Shown: one piece after another, positions 5,309 through 20,076 of the stretch
Layout of the letters: each line of letters begins with the position of its first letter
Position numbering within the stretch: the first letter of the stretch is position 1
DNA from: a virus
Length of the DNA stretch: 20,076 nt
IMG/VR virus record: IMGVR_UViG_3300044675_000272
Coordinates: 1-20,076 of that record
Strand: one strand, 5' to 3'
Position numbers and translations under genes: made by a program
Notes under the pieces: generated by a model
What the model was told of the DNA's origin: nothing
Databases searched by the model: none
What the model saw: the letters and a program-made list of their open reading frames with translations, nothing else

Positions 5309-6151
5309 TTAAGACTCGCGGCAGGTAATCTGAACGATACCTTCCGCATCAATGGTGATGGCACCGGCTGAGAATACCTCGTTGACCAACCAGCTGGTTT
5401 TCTCAGCAATGTAGTTGATCTCAGTACGCATGCCAATACCTTCCGCATAGCCAAGGGCATCGCGGTGGAAAGCAAAGCAAACACGATCCAACGAACCATC
5501 AATTGCCAAACCACCTTCTGCACGATCACCCAGTACGTGGAACTTGAAACCCATATAGGTATTCAGTTCGCCCTGAACTAAAGCCTTAACTGTGTTGAAA
5601 TCCGACGATGTAACAGTGGTTTCAGACAACAAGTTAGCCAAGCCATTAGCATGGATAATGATGTTACGGTTATCTGGTGGAACATTGTTTTTGTCCATCA
5701 GACGCTTAGCTTCGCGCAACTTGGCAATGTTCATATTGCTGTCAGATGCGCCAATGTCGTTAGACACTGTCAATGATGTGCCAGATCCTGCGAGAGCGTC
5801 CAGGATCAATTGATCTTGGCGGCGACCCATAGCACTTGCAACTACTTTAACCAACTCAGAGCGCTCGTCAAAATTGACTTTAGCCTGGCTGAAAATATCT
5901 GAATACTCAGCTGCATTCCAATCCTGCAAAGTACAGGTAACGGAACTAAAGCCAACATTCAGCGGTGTTATATCAGTCTGAGCAATGCGCAGAGTAGCTG
6001 CACCCTTACCGACTTTAGGAAATTTTACTGTGCTGCCCTCTACCCCGCGACGCTGACGCACTGCTGGAACCAACATAGCCGATGCTTGATAGGCTTGTTT
6101 GACTTCAGCGTCGAACAGGGTAACAAAGGCGTTTGATAAAGAAACGGCCAT
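5309..6151 (-). CDS. Major capsid protein
   Basis: A 280-residue protein expected to adopt the HK97 fold and build the icosahedral head. Typical features for podovirus capsids are the N-terminal helix (VTLFDAEVKQAYQ, residues 10-22), the arginine-rich loop that follows (RQRRGVEGSTVKFPKVGKG), the block LQDWNAAEYSDIF and the later RRQDQLILDAL helix. It follows the scaffold gene and precedes tail adaptor and nozzle, the T7-like order. It is translated from a strong site (AGGAG seven bases before the ATG at 6151) and is set off from the scaffold by a terminator and a long leader. Shorter than T7 gp10 but within the range for related podovirus capsids. Confidence 0.9.
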   Translation of the reverse strand: MAVSLSNAFVTLFDAEVKQAYQASAMLVPAVRQRRGVEGSTVKFPKVGKGAATLRIAQTDITPLNVGFSSVTCTLQDWNAAEYSDIFSQAKVNFDERSELVKVVASAMGRRQDQLILDALAGSGTSLTVSNDIGASDSNMNIAKLREAKRLMDKNNVPPDNRNIIIHANGLANLLSETTVTSSDFNTVKALVQGELNTYMGFKFHVLGDRAEGGLAIDGSLDRVCFAFHRDALGYAEGIGMRTEINYIAEKTSWLVNEVFSAGAITIDAEGIVQITCRES

Positions 6152-6336
6152 TTTGATACTCCTAGTTTATTGACAAAAGGTTATTTGTCGCGCCGGTATG
6201 CCAGGTATTCTGGGCCGATTGCTTGTCGGTTACGCCGACCAAACGTCTGCTCCACAGCGGTTAGGGTTCAACAGATATCTATTGAATAAGCCTGATAGCT
6301 TTTTACTCTTGTTCTTTTTAAAATGCAAGCGTAAAA
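6152..6336 (-). promoter_or_regulatory. Capsid leader region with inverted repeats
   Basis: A 185-base gap between the scaffold terminator and the capsid start. It holds a 20-base near-palindrome at 6267-6286 and a small hairpin (GTCGG at 6225-6229 with CCGAC at 6235-6239) whose arm could alternatively pair with CCGA/TCGG at 6215-6218. Because a terminator lies just upstream, a capsid promoter is expected here; I see no convincing sigma70 pair on the minus strand (the best, TTGCAT then TAAAAA 17 bases on, is weak), so a phage-specific promoter is possible. Confidence 0.5.
6267..6286. repeat. Near-palindrome with AGATATCT core in capsid leader
   Basis: TTCAACAGATATCTATTGAA: nine of ten base pairs are symmetric. 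The central AGATATCT is the same 8-base core found in the palindrome at 18293-18308. A protein-binding site is more likely than an RNA structure because there is no loop. Confidence 0.6.
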
Positions 6337-12033: not shown

Positions 12034-12079
12034 GCGTGGATTCTATTGGGTTTTGTGGGAATTGCAATGGTGCGATATC

Positions 12080-13627
12080 TCATGAAAATACATCAAAATC
12101 CATCTTGGCCACCACTTGCTGCGATGGTGCTCGGCCTGGCTGGTTGGATTGCCTAGTTAATCGGTTGTATTCACCGCCACCCAGTAGCAGATATCCGAAA
12201 GCGTCACCAACGTGGGAGTGTTCGTTCTTGTTTGGTGCGTCTCTGAACCGTTCGTGGCCGGCACCAACCGCAATCCGCTTGAAGTGGTAGCCACCAGACA
12301 GGGATTTGCGCAGTAGTTTGCACTTTCTGGACACAATCAACCCAGGTTTACCCTCGATTAGTCGCTGCATTGGCATAGCAGCTGATTCTCGGCGTACTTT
12401 AAAATCATTACTGGGTGCCGGTTGAGCTCGCAACCCCAATGTGCGCAGGTAATCAAAGCTGGTGACCTCATAGATCTGATCTCTGGCCATACCGGCAGGA
12501 TCTCCCCATGGCAATACCTGGTAGCCAGGGTATTTTGAGTTAAGATCAGCAAGCAAATGCTGGCCAAAACGCTCTAATCCCATATCCTCGGTCACTATTT
12601 CATCTAAGATCTGCCATCTACCATTGGCTAAACGCTGCCCAATAACGGCTGCAGGAGTTAAACCAAAGTCTAATCCGACCTGGATAGCCTGGGTAGGATC
12701 GGGTTCTGGATCCCCAACCATCATATTATCGTCATACTCAGGCCAAACTGGCCTTCCTTCTTGAACGTAGGTATAGAGCCCACCTGCGTAGCAGCGGATC
12801 CAATCAGCGTTTTTACCGAGTAGCATCTGCTGGTAATAGCCGGCTGGTAGGTTCCCGACATTCTCCGCTTTGTTGTTAATTTTCCACCACTTGCCGCCAG
12901 CGAATATATGGTCATTGGCTTCTGGGTGATCTGGTAGTTCGGCACCTGAGACTTCGACCATTCCTCCTGGTTGCTTGAAAAATTGCCACGCATACTTGCC
13001 CGACATTTTCTCCTTCTCTGCCAGCTTAAACCACCAGTGGTCATCGTCCATAGGATTAGTATCCATCCAAATGCCATGCCAAGTAGCGCCGCCATCACGC
13101 TTAGTGGGATAGCGGCCAACACGATGAGTAAGCCCATCAATAACTGCTTTTGGAAGTTCTCTGGCTTCATTTACCCAGGCTCCTGTCAGTTCAAGTGAAA
13201 GTAATTTGCGCACATCTTTGGGTTGATCTAGCGCCAAGAATATAATTTCGCAATCAATACCGGCTGCATCACCTCTCGATGGCAAGCGGATATGATGGGT
13301 AATAGGTGGAGTCCAGAGCAGTGGTCCGAACGTATTCTCTGGGAATAGATCTGTCCAGGTTTTAATCGTTGTGGTCTTTAACATTGGGTAGCTATTACGC
13401 ACAATGGCAAACCTGGTGTACCTGATGCCATCAATAGGGCTAGGCTTTTGCTGTACGGCACGCATCATGATCTCAGCTGCGCATGCATAGCTCTTACCGG
13501 ATCCCACTGGCCCCATTAATCCACGTACAAAATTATTAGACTGCAAAAACTTCCAGACCACTGGGCTAGTGGAGAAGTCTAGATTTAGACCAGTGGTTTC
13601 TTTGCTGCCGGTTTCTTTAGTTTTCAT
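12080..13627 (-). CDS. terL: Terminase large subunit
   Basis: A 515-residue packaging motor and nuclease. The ATPase part has Walker A GPVGSGKS at residues 39-46 and the Walker B/catalytic region LTGAWVNEARE with E154. The C-terminal RNase-H-like nuclease shows GLDFG with D320 and HVGDAFGYLLLG with D475, both expected metal ligands. These motifs and length are typical of the podovirus terminases. It cuts concatemers and drives DNA through the portal. Its ATG at 13627 immediately follows the stop of a 44-residue zinc-type gene; the terminase small subunit is two genes upstream. Terminase genes lie upstream of the head genes here, unlike T7 where they are at the far end. Confidence 0.95.
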   Translation of the reverse strand: MKTKETGSKETTGLNLDFSTSPVVWKFLQSNNFVRGLMGPVGSGKSYACAAEIMMRAVQQKPSPIDGIRYTRFAIVRNSYPMLKTTTIKTWTDLFPENTFGPLLWTPPITHHIRLPSRGDAAGIDCEIIFLALDQPKDVRKLLSLELTGAWVNEARELPKAVIDGLTHRVGRYPTKRDGGATWHGIWMDTNPMDDDHWWFKLAEKEKMSGKYAWQFFKQPGGMVEVSGAELPDHPEANDHIFAGGKWWKINNKAENVGNLPAGYYQQMLLGKNADWIRCYAGGLYTYVQEGRPVWPEYDDNMMVGDPEPDPTQAIQVGLDFGLTPAAVIGQRLANGRWQILDEIVTEDMGLERFGQHLLADLNSKYPGYQVLPWGDPAGMARDQIYEVTSFDYLRTLGLRAQPAPSNDFKVRRESAAMPMQRLIEGKPGLIVSRKCKLLRKSLSGGYHFKRIAVGAGHERFRDAPNKNEHSHVGDAFGYLLLGGGEYNRLTRQSNQPGRAPSQQVVAKMDFDVFS

Positions 13628-15727: not shown

Positions 15728-16477
15728 TCAACCCTGCTGGGATAATGCGACCTGCCGGTAGTATCCGAGTCCTGATGGCGGCTGTCTGCCTGTCTGCTGG
15801 TGCCAATGCATGGAATCCTGCAGGATCTGACGCCATTTCTCTATTGATAACTGCTTACTTGCTAACTCCGATGCAATTCTGGCATCTTGCTCGTTTAGCA
15901 CGCGATCAACGCCGCATATCATCCTGCACGCAACTATAAACTCCCGACTATAGTCTTGTGCCTTAACCTCTTCACGTTCTTGTGCAACCTCCAGCTCTCT
16001 CACTTTACGCTTCCTCATCGCATCCTCCGTTGGTAATGTTGGCTCCATCATTGGTTCATCAGTTACATATATGCTATCCACTTCTAATTCATGTCCGTTG
16101 CCAGCAATTGCTATCTGATCTTCTGCTGACAGTGATTTATCGTAGATCACTCGCCACGTACATCCTGCGATGCCTGGCTTACCTGAGTAGCTGTTACCAA
16201 TCTTTTCGATGTATCCAGCTCTGGATAGGATCTTCATCTGCTTATTGATTGCTTGCCTGGTTACTCCCAGCTCTTGCGCTACTCTGCCTTGTGATACCCA
16301 GGTTATCCCTGCTCTGCTTGCAAATGAGCTGACCATCGCTAGTATGGTTCTGTTCCTGTCTGTGATTGTCTTGTCTGTCAGTGACCTGGTTGGGATCACA
16401 GCAAATGGAGTCTTTCTCGGTGGTGTTTGCTTCTTTCTAATGCTCTTTGGTTTTGCCGGCAGTACAAACTTACTCAT
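15728..16477 (-). CDS. Winged-helix DNA-binding protein, likely replication initiator
   Basis: A 249-residue protein (ATG 16477; a GTG at 16483 would add two residues). Residues about 35-105 form a winged helix: LTDRN...ILAMVSSFAS, then WVSQGRVAQELGVTRQAINKQMKILSRAGYIEKI, where the recognition helix is VTRQAINKQMKIL. The C-terminal 70 residues (LNEQDARIASELASKQLSIEKWRQIL, then QPPSGLGYYRQVAL) resemble the tail of plasmid and phage replication initiators. It would bind an origin and help load a helicase. The 530-base non-coding stretch begins right after its stop, consistent with an origin nearby. A transcriptional regulator is the alternative. Confidence 0.68.
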   Translation of the reverse strand: MSKFVLPAKPKSIRKKQTPPRKTPFAVIPTRSLTDKTITDRNRTILAMVSSFASRAGITWVSQGRVAQELGVTRQAINKQMKILSRAGYIEKIGNSYSGKPGIAGCTWRVIYDKSLSAEDQIAIAGNGHELEVDSIYVTDEPMMEPTLPTEDAMRKRKVRELEVAQEREEVKAQDYSREFIVACRMICGVDRVLNEQDARIASELASKQLSIEKWRQILQDSMHWHQQTGRQPPSGLGYYRQVALSQQG

Positions 16478-16583
16478 GCCCACACCAATCCATAGATAGC
16501 AGCATGCCGATCATTACTCCCAGGATCACACCAATCACTATGCCAGCCAAAAAGATACTGATCGACAATACTTGAATCATCAT
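16470..16583 (-). CDS. 37-residue membrane miniprotein with glycine zipper
   Basis: A short frame from ATG 16583 to TAA 16470-16472 with an AGGAG ribosome site five bases upstream (AACAGGAGCAAATG) and ATGA coupling to the preceding gene; its stop overlaps the start of the winged-helix gene. Almost all of residues 5-30 is hydrophobic, a single membrane helix, and glycines fall at 14, 18, 22 and 26 (GxxxGxxxGxxxG), a classical helix-packing zipper. The end is MDWCGHE. It could be a pore-forming, holin-like or regulatory membrane peptide; no family recognised. Confidence 0.68.
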   Translation of the reverse strand: MMIQVLSISIFLAGIVIGVILGVMIGMLLSMDWCGHE

Positions 16584-17376: not shown

Positions 17377-17702
17377 ATGCTTAGCTTCTGCCCAGTATGT
17401 GGCCGCTTGCTGATCGTCATACCTATGATCTCCGCAGCCTGTAATCGCTTGCAGATCTTAAATATCTGCTCGGTGCCTATCGGGTCACCCTGCCTCAACA
17501 TTGCCTCAAATATGTCTGGCGTTGACAGGTTCCCATACTTTCCCAATATGGCCACAATCCTCTCGTCATGGCGCTTCTTCTTGCCCTGCTGCCTGATGCT
17601 ACTGTCCATGCCAAACTTAATCACCTGCCGGGTTGGTAGATTGTCCACCAGGCTTGTGCGCTTGCCAGACAGCTGCTCTACCGACCACAGCCAGGAAATC
17701 AT
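17349..17702 (-). CDS. Winged-helix-like small protein
   Basis: A 117-residue basic protein. Residues 47-112 (ERIVAILGKYGNLSTPDIFEAML, TEQIFKICKRLQAAEIIG, then LSIWYI) have the layout of a winged helix: helix, helix-turn-helix, recognition helix KICKRL, and a short strand wing. This suggests DNA binding, perhaps regulation of early genes. The ATG at 17702 shares ATGA with the resolvase stop. The first 30 residues look less structured; an internal ATG at 17609 is an alternative start but lacks a ribosome site. Confidence 0.6.
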   Translation of the reverse strand: MISWLWSVEQLSGKRTSLVDNLPTRQVIKFGMDSSIRQQGKKKRHDERIVAILGKYGNLSTPDIFEAMLRQGDPIGTEQIFKICKRLQAAEIIGMTISKRPHTGQKLSIWYIKSSTK

Positions 17703-18016
17703 AACTGATCTCTAACCATAGGTATGAAATCGTCTAGCAACAATACAACACGCCATGGTTGGCCATTGCGTCTGTAAACCACCACCGGTATCTCACCAGG
17801 TTCAATGCACGCTTCCACCTGCTTGCACCAATCCTCAATACAGATCCTCTCTTTACGCTTGACCTCAATCCTAAACTTCCCTATTTGGATATCGTCCTCG
17901 CCATCTCTAGCCTGGCCTAGCTTGCGCTTGACTACAAAACCTAGCTTGTCGCTAAGTATCCCGGCCACCTCGCGCTCGCCAACAGCGCCTTTGTTCCTGG
18001 CTCCTCTGCCGTTCAT
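17699..18016 (-). CDS. Holliday-junction-resolvase-like PD-(D/E)XK nuclease
   Basis: A 105-residue nuclease of the compact Hjc/VRR-NUC style. The N-terminal RNKGAVGERE holds E14; GEDDIQIGKFRIEVKRKE gives D41/D42 and E51-x-K53, the PD-(D/E)XK core; W63/Q66 (DWCKQVE) and PVVVYRRNGQPWRVVLLLDDF complete the fold. Such enzymes cut branched DNA during replication and before packaging. Length and motif order fit phage resolvases well. It is coupled to the ribbon-helix-helix gene before it (ATGA at 18013-18016) and to the winged-helix-like gene after it. Confidence 0.85.
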   Translation of the reverse strand: MNGRGARNKGAVGEREVAGILSDKLGFVVKRKLGQARDGEDDIQIGKFRIEVKRKERICIEDWCKQVEACIEPGEIPVVVYRRNGQPWRVVLLLDDFIPMVRDQL

Positions 18017-18198: not shown

Positions 18199-18206
18199 AT
18201 AACCTC

Positions 18207-18222
18207 CTAGAGATATCCCAAC
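18207..18222. promoter_or_regulatory. Candidate operator 2 (imperfect palindrome)
   Basis: CTAGAGATATCCCAAC; its reverse complement matches the perfect palindrome at 18293-18308 in 13 of 16 positions. It lies in the leader of the ribbon-helix-helix gene, directly upstream of its ribosome site, where a bound protein could block that gene. Confidence 0.55.
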
Positions 18223-18257
18223 GATAACATTATTTTTAAATTATTTGCTGATTTTTG

Positions 18258-18285
18258 TTGACGCAGCCATTGAACTCTGTAGAAT
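18258..18285 (+). promoter_or_regulatory. Sigma70-type promoter for the recombinase operon
   Basis: TTGACG (18258-18263) and TAGAAT (18280-18285) are separated by 16 bases; the boxes match the consensus at 5 of 6 positions each. Transcription would start near 18292, right at the palindrome 18293-18308. Confidence 0.7.
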
Positions 18286-18292
18286 CGGGGTT

Positions 18293-18308
18293 GTTGAGAT
18301 ATCTCAAC
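18293..18308. promoter_or_regulatory. Candidate operator 1 (perfect 16-base palindrome)
   Basis: GTTGAGATATCTCAAC is exactly self-complementary and covers the expected transcription start of the recombinase promoter. It is a likely binding site for the neighbouring ribbon-helix-helix dimer; MetJ-type proteins use 8-base boxes of similar form (AGACGTCT against AGATATCT here). A recombinase site is the alternative. Confidence 0.65.
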
Positions 18309-18334
18309 CAATCTACCGACCGACAGGAGATCAT

Positions 18335-18979: not shown

Positions 18980-19056
18980 ACGACGATTTCTTTACCGGTT
19001 GCATGGTGGGTATCTCCATCATGCTGGCAATAATGTTATTTAAAGGATGGATCTAA
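18976..19056 (+). CDS. 26-residue membrane peptide
   Basis: A very short frame that starts in the recombinase stop (ATGA at 18976-18979) and ends in a TAATG overlap with the next gene. MNDDFFTG is followed by a hydrophobic helix (CMVGISIMLAIMLF, residues 9-22) and a KGWI end: a single membrane segment. The double coupling supports it, but 26 residues could also be a leader that only passes ribosomes to the next gene. No family recognised. Confidence 0.5.
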   Translation: MNDDFFTGCMVGISIMLAIMLFKGWI

Positions 19057-19358
19057 TGAAAACAGGACAGCAGTTAAAACTAGAAATCCTGGACGATATC
19101 GAAGCCAGGCGCTCACAGTTCATCAGCATGGCACGTAACCTGGCTAGATCTATCAGCCGGGAACGTGGCCAGGTATCAATTAATGACATTCGGGAGAAAC
19201 ACCCGCTCCCTGATGATGTACATCCCAGTGCCTACGGAGCTGTATTTCGTGGACCACTGTGGAAAGTAATCGGGTATACCGCAGCAAAACACTCTGATGC
19301 CCATGGCCGGTTAATCAGAATCTACATATGGAATGAAGGAGAAAATAATGGTTGGTAA
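19056..19358 (+). CDS. Small winged-helix-like phage protein
   Basis: A 100-residue protein. After an N-terminal helix, residues about 38-97 (INDIREKHPLPDDVHPSAYGAVFRGPLWKVIGYTAAKHSDAHGRLIRIYIW, here cited in parts) show a layout that I know from unnamed phage proteins: VSINDIRE, HPSAYGAVFRG, WKVIGY, then HGRLIRIYIW. This looks like a winged helix with a beta hairpin. The start at ATG 19056 follows AAGGAT and overlaps the membrane peptide stop (TAATG); an ATG at 19047 is an alternative. It overlaps the exonuclease start by 11 bases. DNA-related function is likely from context. Confidence 0.68.
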   Translation: MKTGQQLKLEILDDIEARRSQFISMARNLARSISRERGQVSINDIREKHPLPDDVHPSAYGAVFRGPLWKVIGYTAAKHSDAHGRLIRIYIWNEGENNGW

Positions 19359-20076
19359 AGTCACCCCCGACAGCATGCTGTCAGCTAGCCGCTTGCCGGC
19401 AGTCCTTGGTCTATCCAAGTATCGCACCCCTAATGATGAGCTCCTGGTATCCATTGATGCCATGAATGGCAAGAAGCCAGCTGATATATCTAATGAGGCT
19501 ATGAGCTGGGGCAATACGCTAGAGCCTGTCATCTTAAATAAGACAGCTGAACGTCTGCAGCTCACCGATCTGAAACTAGACCACCCAAAACCATTCTTTC
19601 ACCCTACACTGCCGCTATGCTGCAGCCTGGATGGATTAGCTGATGGTCGAGGTCAAATCCTGCGCACAGATCCTGATGCTGGCATCTTTGTTATTGGCCA
19701 AGAGTCTATCGAGCTCGATGGGTACGGAGTGCTGGAGGCCAAGCTAACCAGCGGCACACCTGAAAACATACCAGCCCTGCATCGAGGCCCGATCCAATTG
19801 CAAGCGCAAATGGATATCATGGGATTTAAGTGGGGAGCTCTGGCCACACTGTATCGCGGCACCGAGCTCAGAATATTCTTGTTTGCTCCACATCAAAACA
19901 CCTTAGATATCATTAAGAAGATCACCCTGGACTTCCAAAACCGGCTAGAGATCTGGAGATTTGAAAACAGGATCGATCACTTCCCGGTGGCCAACAGTAA
20001 GGATGCAGATACCCTCTGGCCAAACATTACCTCAGAACAGGACGTACTAGAGTTGGATGATGCAGCTGCAGAGTAT
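19348..20076 (+). CDS. YqaJ/lambda-exonuclease-type nuclease, partial
   Basis: The first 243 residues of a frame open to the right edge. Family signs: the entry SASRLPAVLGLSKYRTP (12-28), AMSWGNTLEP with E59, CCSLDGLADG (91-100) with D95, and GVLEAKLTS with E130-x-K132, followed by IQLQAQMDIMG (149-159). These are the catalytic residues of YqaJ-type 5'-3' exonucleases, which prepare DNA ends for single-strand annealing recombination together with a recombinase partner (RecT/Beta type). A partner is expected to lie next, beyond the window. The start ATG 19348 has AAGGAG about seven bases upstream and overlaps the previous stop. Confidence 0.88.
   Translation, partial: MVGKVTPDSMLSASRLPAVLGLSKYRTPNDELLVSIDAMNGKKPADISNEAMSWGNTLEPVILNKTAERLQLTDLKLDHPKPFFHPTLPLCCSLDGLADGRGQILRTDPDAGIFVIGQESIELDGYGVLEAKLTSGTPENIPALHRGPIQLQAQMDIMGFKWGALATLYRGTELRIFLFAPHQNTLDIIKKITLDFQNRLEIWRFENRIDHFPVANSKDADTLWPNITSEQDVLELDDAAAEY

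Follow-up and report, generated by a model that had tools for sequence, protein, structure and literature searches.

A predicted ribbon-helix-helix repressor and GATATC-centred boxes at the divergent promoters of a serine recombinase operon in a clade of aquatic phages

A 20,076-base virus record (IMGVR_UViG_3300044675_000272; the whole stretch is called the window here) carries a gene for a ribbon-helix-helix (RHH) protein, P0001, back to back with a gene for a serine recombinase, P0002. What controls transcription in the two directions from the gap between them, and does the pairing of a regulator with a recombinase amount to a switch in the life of the phage? We conclude that P0001 is probably an autoregulated repressor of both divergent operons, acting via GATATC boxes in an early-gene shut-off by negative feedback. 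The features are listed in Table 1.

Table 1. Features of the window, with coordinates in the numbering of the record.
Feature	Position	Strand	Details
Structured RNA leader of major capsid gene (5309-6151)	6155-6290	-	
Replication initiator-like gene	15728-16483		
PDDEXK/RusA-like nuclease	17699..18016	-	Next gene after the RHH gene
RHH regulator P0001	18013..18198	-	61 aa; heads a long set of leftward genes
RHH-side box 1 (predicted operator)	18207-18222		CTAGAGATATCCCAAC; core GATATC at 18212-18217; 13/16, 3 mismatches
RHH-side box 2 (predicted)	18223-18228		GATAAC; degenerate; 11 bp from box 1
Sigma-70-like promoter of recombinase operon	18258..18285	+	TTGACG-16-TAGAAT; 10/12 consensus
Main operator (predicted)	18293-18308		GTTGAGATATCTCAAC; perfect palindrome, 0 mismatches; at expected transcription start
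Small serine recombinase P0002	18335..18979	+	214 aa; Pfam Resolvase PF00239, 9.9e-26, residues 4-135
Small protein	19047..19358	+	Same direction as recombinase; no confident family
YqaJ-family exonuclease	19333..20076	+	Runs off window end; Pfam YqaJ 4e-8

Both sequence and fold place P0001 in the RHH (MetJ/Arc) superfamily. Its score against Pfam RHH_1 was 21.0 bits, 0.5 bits above the cutoff of 20.5. An AlphaFold2 model built with 18 homologues (pLDDT 80.5) contained the two RHH helices, at residues 13-26 and 30-45; DSSP assigned no strand in this monomer model. The best Foldseek match of the model was the Arc-operator complex 1par (a weak E of 0.062, probability 0.99), and CopASO, PutA, CopG and AmrZ were matched with high probability at E-values of 0.06 and up. 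Weak E-values with a probability near 0.99 are usual for so small a fold. Orthology to Arc or Mnt was not found, nor was close sequence identity to Arc; the PHROG 'Arc-like repressor' families matched P0001 only at E about 0.05, and a phage-collection search with P0001 as query gave no matches.

P0002 is a small serine recombinase of the resolvase/invertase type, with a catalytic domain carrying the nucleophile serine and a short C-terminal DNA-binding part. The catalytic motifs R8, S10 and DRLSR are retained. It matched the PHROG DNA invertase family (4.7e-32), and Gin and gamma-delta resolvase were among its PDB relatives.

The gap between the two genes had been described in an earlier note on this DNA as containing a perfect 16-base palindrome and a 13/16 copy of it. 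Their coordinates, their sequences and the 86 bp between their centres all proved correct. The former is the sole perfect palindrome of at least 16 bp within the window, and the two sites are the only matches at up to 3 mismatches in the 20 kb (shuffle mean 0.05). When the 136-bp gap was shuffled 20,000 times, a perfect palindrome of that size arose in 41 shuffles, and in 0 with a 13/16 copy as well. The imperfect copy, box 1, stands directly 5' of AGGAGG, the ribosome site of the regulator gene. The degenerate box 2 beside it, which had been missed earlier, is an exact GATATC in six relatives (L002-L007). The exact 16-mer was also found in 11 other contigs, all without the RHH gene, where it probably occurs by chance.

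That a near-consensus promoter precedes the perfect palindrome, with the palindrome on its start site, was borne out: from the position of the promoter, transcription is expected to start where the palindrome begins. The promoter scan by itself was not significant (3 found vs 3.3 expected). Nine close relatives show no change in either promoter hexamer or in either box core. The leftward promoter matches the consensus only weakly.

The two genes are kept together in related phages. Scanning viral contigs with the recombinase yielded 80 loci, nearly all with an RHH gene of the P0001 family. When further scans were added, both genes were present in 212 of 233 recombinase loci, a count of loci and not of independent phages, in which some contigs recur. 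The RHH gene is usually divergent and just upstream of the recombinase, and the pairing persists to about 50% recombinase identity. In one scan of genome contigs, which reaches close relatives only, cellular-genome recombinases of the P0002 type were without an RHH partner, save on one contig, of a phage-sized 34.5 kb, in an Opitutae MAG. The phages form a large, mostly uncultured, water-dwelling group with one close cultured member.

This member and closest cultured relative is the Methylophilales (OM43) phage MEP301 (MW452941, our L111; terminase 78%, portal 69%). Its gp52 (32729-32890), annotated as 'hypothetical', belongs to the RHH family of P0001 (E 2.7e-14), and its recombinase, gp04 (935-1624), retains the serine-recombinase catalytic motifs. 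The next gene, gp05, encodes a YqaJ protein to which the exonuclease of the window is 37% identical, and ERF accompanies the operon. The authors of the MEP301 study doubted that the recombinase functions, PF07508 being absent, and their paper mentions no repressor (PMC8024684).

MEP301 resembles the window in these genes and in a GATATC box of its rightward promoter, which lies at 34702 inside the spacer (TTGCATTAATCGATATCTTTGTTATATACT). It differs in that gp53-gp55 part its RHH gene from the promoter, and intervening genes separate the two in the MEP301-like clade; gp55, the initiator-like gene, adjoins the promoter. In this clade GATATC was present in the -35/-10 spacer at 24 of 54 loci, in 11 distinct contexts, and was the top palindromic hexamer, a descriptive count because the loose -35/box/-10 pattern was chosen after viewing MEP301-like sequences. 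In a strict sigma-70 scan GATATC did not come first, with 7 sites vs 11 for ATTAAT.

In four relatives (L326, L327, L336 and L342), clusters of the DnaA-box-like sequence TTATCCACA occur near the initiator-like gene and the divergent promoter, at 1.5-2.8 kb upstream of the RHH gene. These clusters likely mark a replication origin.

Across subclades, the whole stretch separating the two genes diverges except for GATATC-centred boxes near both ends. For example, L018 has CCAAGATATCACA together with TGCGATATCGCA, and L078 has TTGAGATATCTGA together with TAGCGATATCGCTA. Several lineages have such conserved boxes at each end of the divergent region. Sixteen non-redundant RHH upstream regions contained 15 copies of GATATC, spread over 8 of them, vs 0.93 in shuffles (maximum 4 in 500) and 1.1 predicted from the background density of the same contigs; the motif ranked first of the 64 palindromic hexamers there. 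GATATC is about threefold over the base-composition expectation throughout these genomes, so single boxes mean little and the case for enrichment depends on where they lie.

The boxes also recur at a fixed distance. A second box lay 11 bp from an exact box in 5 cases, vs 1.2 in shuffles that kept the exact boxes. This spacing is one helical turn and would fit RHH dimers sitting side by side on one face of the helix. A comparable arrangement is known for RelB, whose dimers occupy two adjoining 12-bp half-sites on one DNA face (PMC2812701). RelB and CopG operators resemble the predicted arrangement in that RHH dimers sit on one face of the DNA at short palindromic half-sites spaced by about one turn; a difference is that no toxin or co-repressor partner was found here.

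A search of related phages for the palindrome had been proposed as a check on the earlier note, and boxes with a GATATC core turned out to be conserved across the clade. The accompanying expectation, that phages with the same two genes would not be without the palindromes, failed only in lineages such as L043 and L051-L062; some of these carry a GTAC-centred palindrome in its place, and none was recognised in L043. Some lineages with both genes (L040, L070, L092 and L113) lack an exact GATATC within the first 200 nt, and some of them have near matches.

Differences in the operator might be related to the RHH protein itself. The DNA-contacting residues were assigned by hand alignment to CopG and Arc, and we take the relevant position to be two residues before the invariant arginine. 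When this position is Leu, Phe, Tyr or Pro, GATATC is found in at least some lineages. RHH proteins of the His type have no GATATC; at their promoter we read by eye a common GTAC-centred palindrome of ~22 bp (ACCACTnTTGTACCAnAGTGGT), which overlaps the -35 (L051, L053, L057, L058, L291 and L294). With 3 non-redundant His-type regions behind it, this apparent covariation of contact residue and operator is suggestive, not proof.

Taken as a repressor, P0001 could work as follows. Its dimers would bind the GATATC-centred palindromic boxes and act by repression rather than activation. The box at the rightward transcription start, or inside the promoter, would block the recombinase-YqaJ recombination operon, and the tandem boxes 11 bp apart beside the regulator's own start would block its leftward operon. 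As P0001 builds up after infection, both transcripts would be turned down. The proposal in the earlier note that the regulator represses both itself and the recombinase operon is well supported, as far as comparison of sequences goes, by the RHH fold and by the clade-conserved GATATC-core boxes that the two promoters share.

Phage RHH repressors with palindromic operators are already known, such as Arc and Mnt. Arc of P22 and Arc-like repressors are similar to P0001 in being small phage RHH proteins that act, as predicted for P0001, on a promoter beside their own gene; the Arc-operator complex is the best structural match, and tandem sub-sites about one helical turn apart are a further likeness. 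The difference is in the core, GATATC here, and in the target: a recombination operon is predicted to be controlled here, whereas Arc controls an antirepressor gene. The logic of early-gene shut-off would be comparable to that of P22 Arc and lambda Cro, a comparison that concerns the mode of action only. A literature search gave nothing relevant on RHH proteins with GATATC, or on RHH proteins with serine recombinases and phages.

The boxes might instead be bound by another regulator, either a host transcription factor or the replication initiator of the phage. The place of gp55 next to the promoter in MEP301 and the nearby TTATCCACA clusters in L326, L336 and L342 speak for such a protein. Against it, the boxes change with the contact residue of the RHH protein, and they adjoin the RHH gene even in phages such as that of the window, whose initiator gene lies far off. 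A host factor has the added difficulty that the boxes are conserved across phages with probably different hosts. We consider this reading unlikely.

The earlier note had gone further than dual repression and suggested a two-state switch, perhaps by way of a DNA loop. In a form resembling the choice between lysis and lysogeny, the RHH protein would silence the recombinase operon, and its loss would commit the phage to integration or excision by the recombinase. Such a switch could be read from the conserved divergent pairing of a repressor with a site-specific recombinase that has kept R8/S10 and the DR..SR motif. The loop is unlikely because the spacing between operators varies from 40 to 128 bp between lineages and is not phased. 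Two states do not follow either: one repressor that turns down its own promoter as well as the opposite one makes a negative feedback circuit, which does not by itself create two states, and the locus encodes a single regulator, with no second repressor or positive feedback seen. In addition, the recombinase shares its operon with YqaJ (and ERF in MEP301), which suggests a role in replication or recombination. One scan of genome contigs with the recombinase, which reaches close relatives only, found no integrated relative and met the RHH pairing only in the phage-sized Opitutae contig. The switch is thus quite unlikely. Equally slight, or a little more so, is the chance of a hidden life cycle, in which lost RHH repression would free the recombinase to integrate, resolve or rearrange the genome at unrecognised sites; if true, this would mean a decision switch and an alternative life cycle across a clade of phages regarded as lytic.

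It is very improbable that the palindromes serve the serine recombinase as crossover or accessory sites, either res-like or bordering an invertible promoter segment. They do have a central AT dinucleotide, and resolvase sites typically adjoin the resolvase gene. Small serine recombinases, however, use sites of ~26-28 bp, longer than the 10-16 bp boxes here. Moreover, the boxes remain with the promoter when other genes part it from the recombinase: in relatives with an extra gene separating the recombinase from the RHH gene, they stay by the RHH gene and the promoter and not at the recombinase start. At 132 two-box loci, the segment between the boxes gave 5058 matches in the same orientation vs 0 inverted.

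The gene after the RHH gene varies between close relatives, being of the PDDEXK type in L018, GNAT-like in L028 and Mom-like in L024. Between the RHH gene and the nuclease, swapped cargo was observed at L024:3459-4019, a Mom-family gene (DNA modification; E 1.2e-10), and at L028:4115-4657, a gene with a weak GNAT match.

P0001 might also act as an antitoxin, with the boxes as the operator by which a toxin-antitoxin pair regulates itself; its weak matches to Antitox_RHH, TacA and RelB-like families (the last at 20 bits vs a cutoff of 50) and the GNAT-like gene of L028 could suggest this. The reading is extremely unlikely, as close relatives differ in what follows the RHH gene, with no conserved adjacent toxin among them, no toxin adjacent in the window and nothing found by PADLOC.

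GATATC was also noted in two other parts of the window. On the minus strand, the intergenic stretch after the terminase gene (12034-12080) has GATATC and then TTGCAA-16-TAGAAT just before the next ATG. It is identical in four relatives, even with a different downstream gene, and may be a third promoter, one that carries an RHH box and yields a leaderless message.

The second is a palindrome at 6274, upstream of the capsid gene. We rejected the idea that the RHH regulon includes this gene, as the palindrome is confined to the closest relatives and represents one sequence version of stem 1 in an RNA leader, a stem that reads differently elsewhere. The leader is common to 33 aligned relatives (L380-L459, upstream of the capsid gene) and has at least three hairpins. 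Compensatory changes were seen at 12 of 19 predicted pairs in a MAFFT alignment, the same alignment from which the structure was predicted, without a shuffle control. No Rfam family matched at the gathering score, and the leader is a candidate new capsid-gene leader RNA.

The repressor reading of P0001 would provide a first regulatory handle on this clade, comprising a predicted repressor, the DNA code that it would read (GATATC, or GTAC where the inferred contact residue differs) and the early promoters that it may control. The clade also offers a natural series of RHH proteins with different operators, in which the DNA specificity of the beta-ribbon is directly testable. Finally, the conserved serine recombinase, whose function had been doubted in MEP301, would on this argument be kept under tight control together with the recombination genes.
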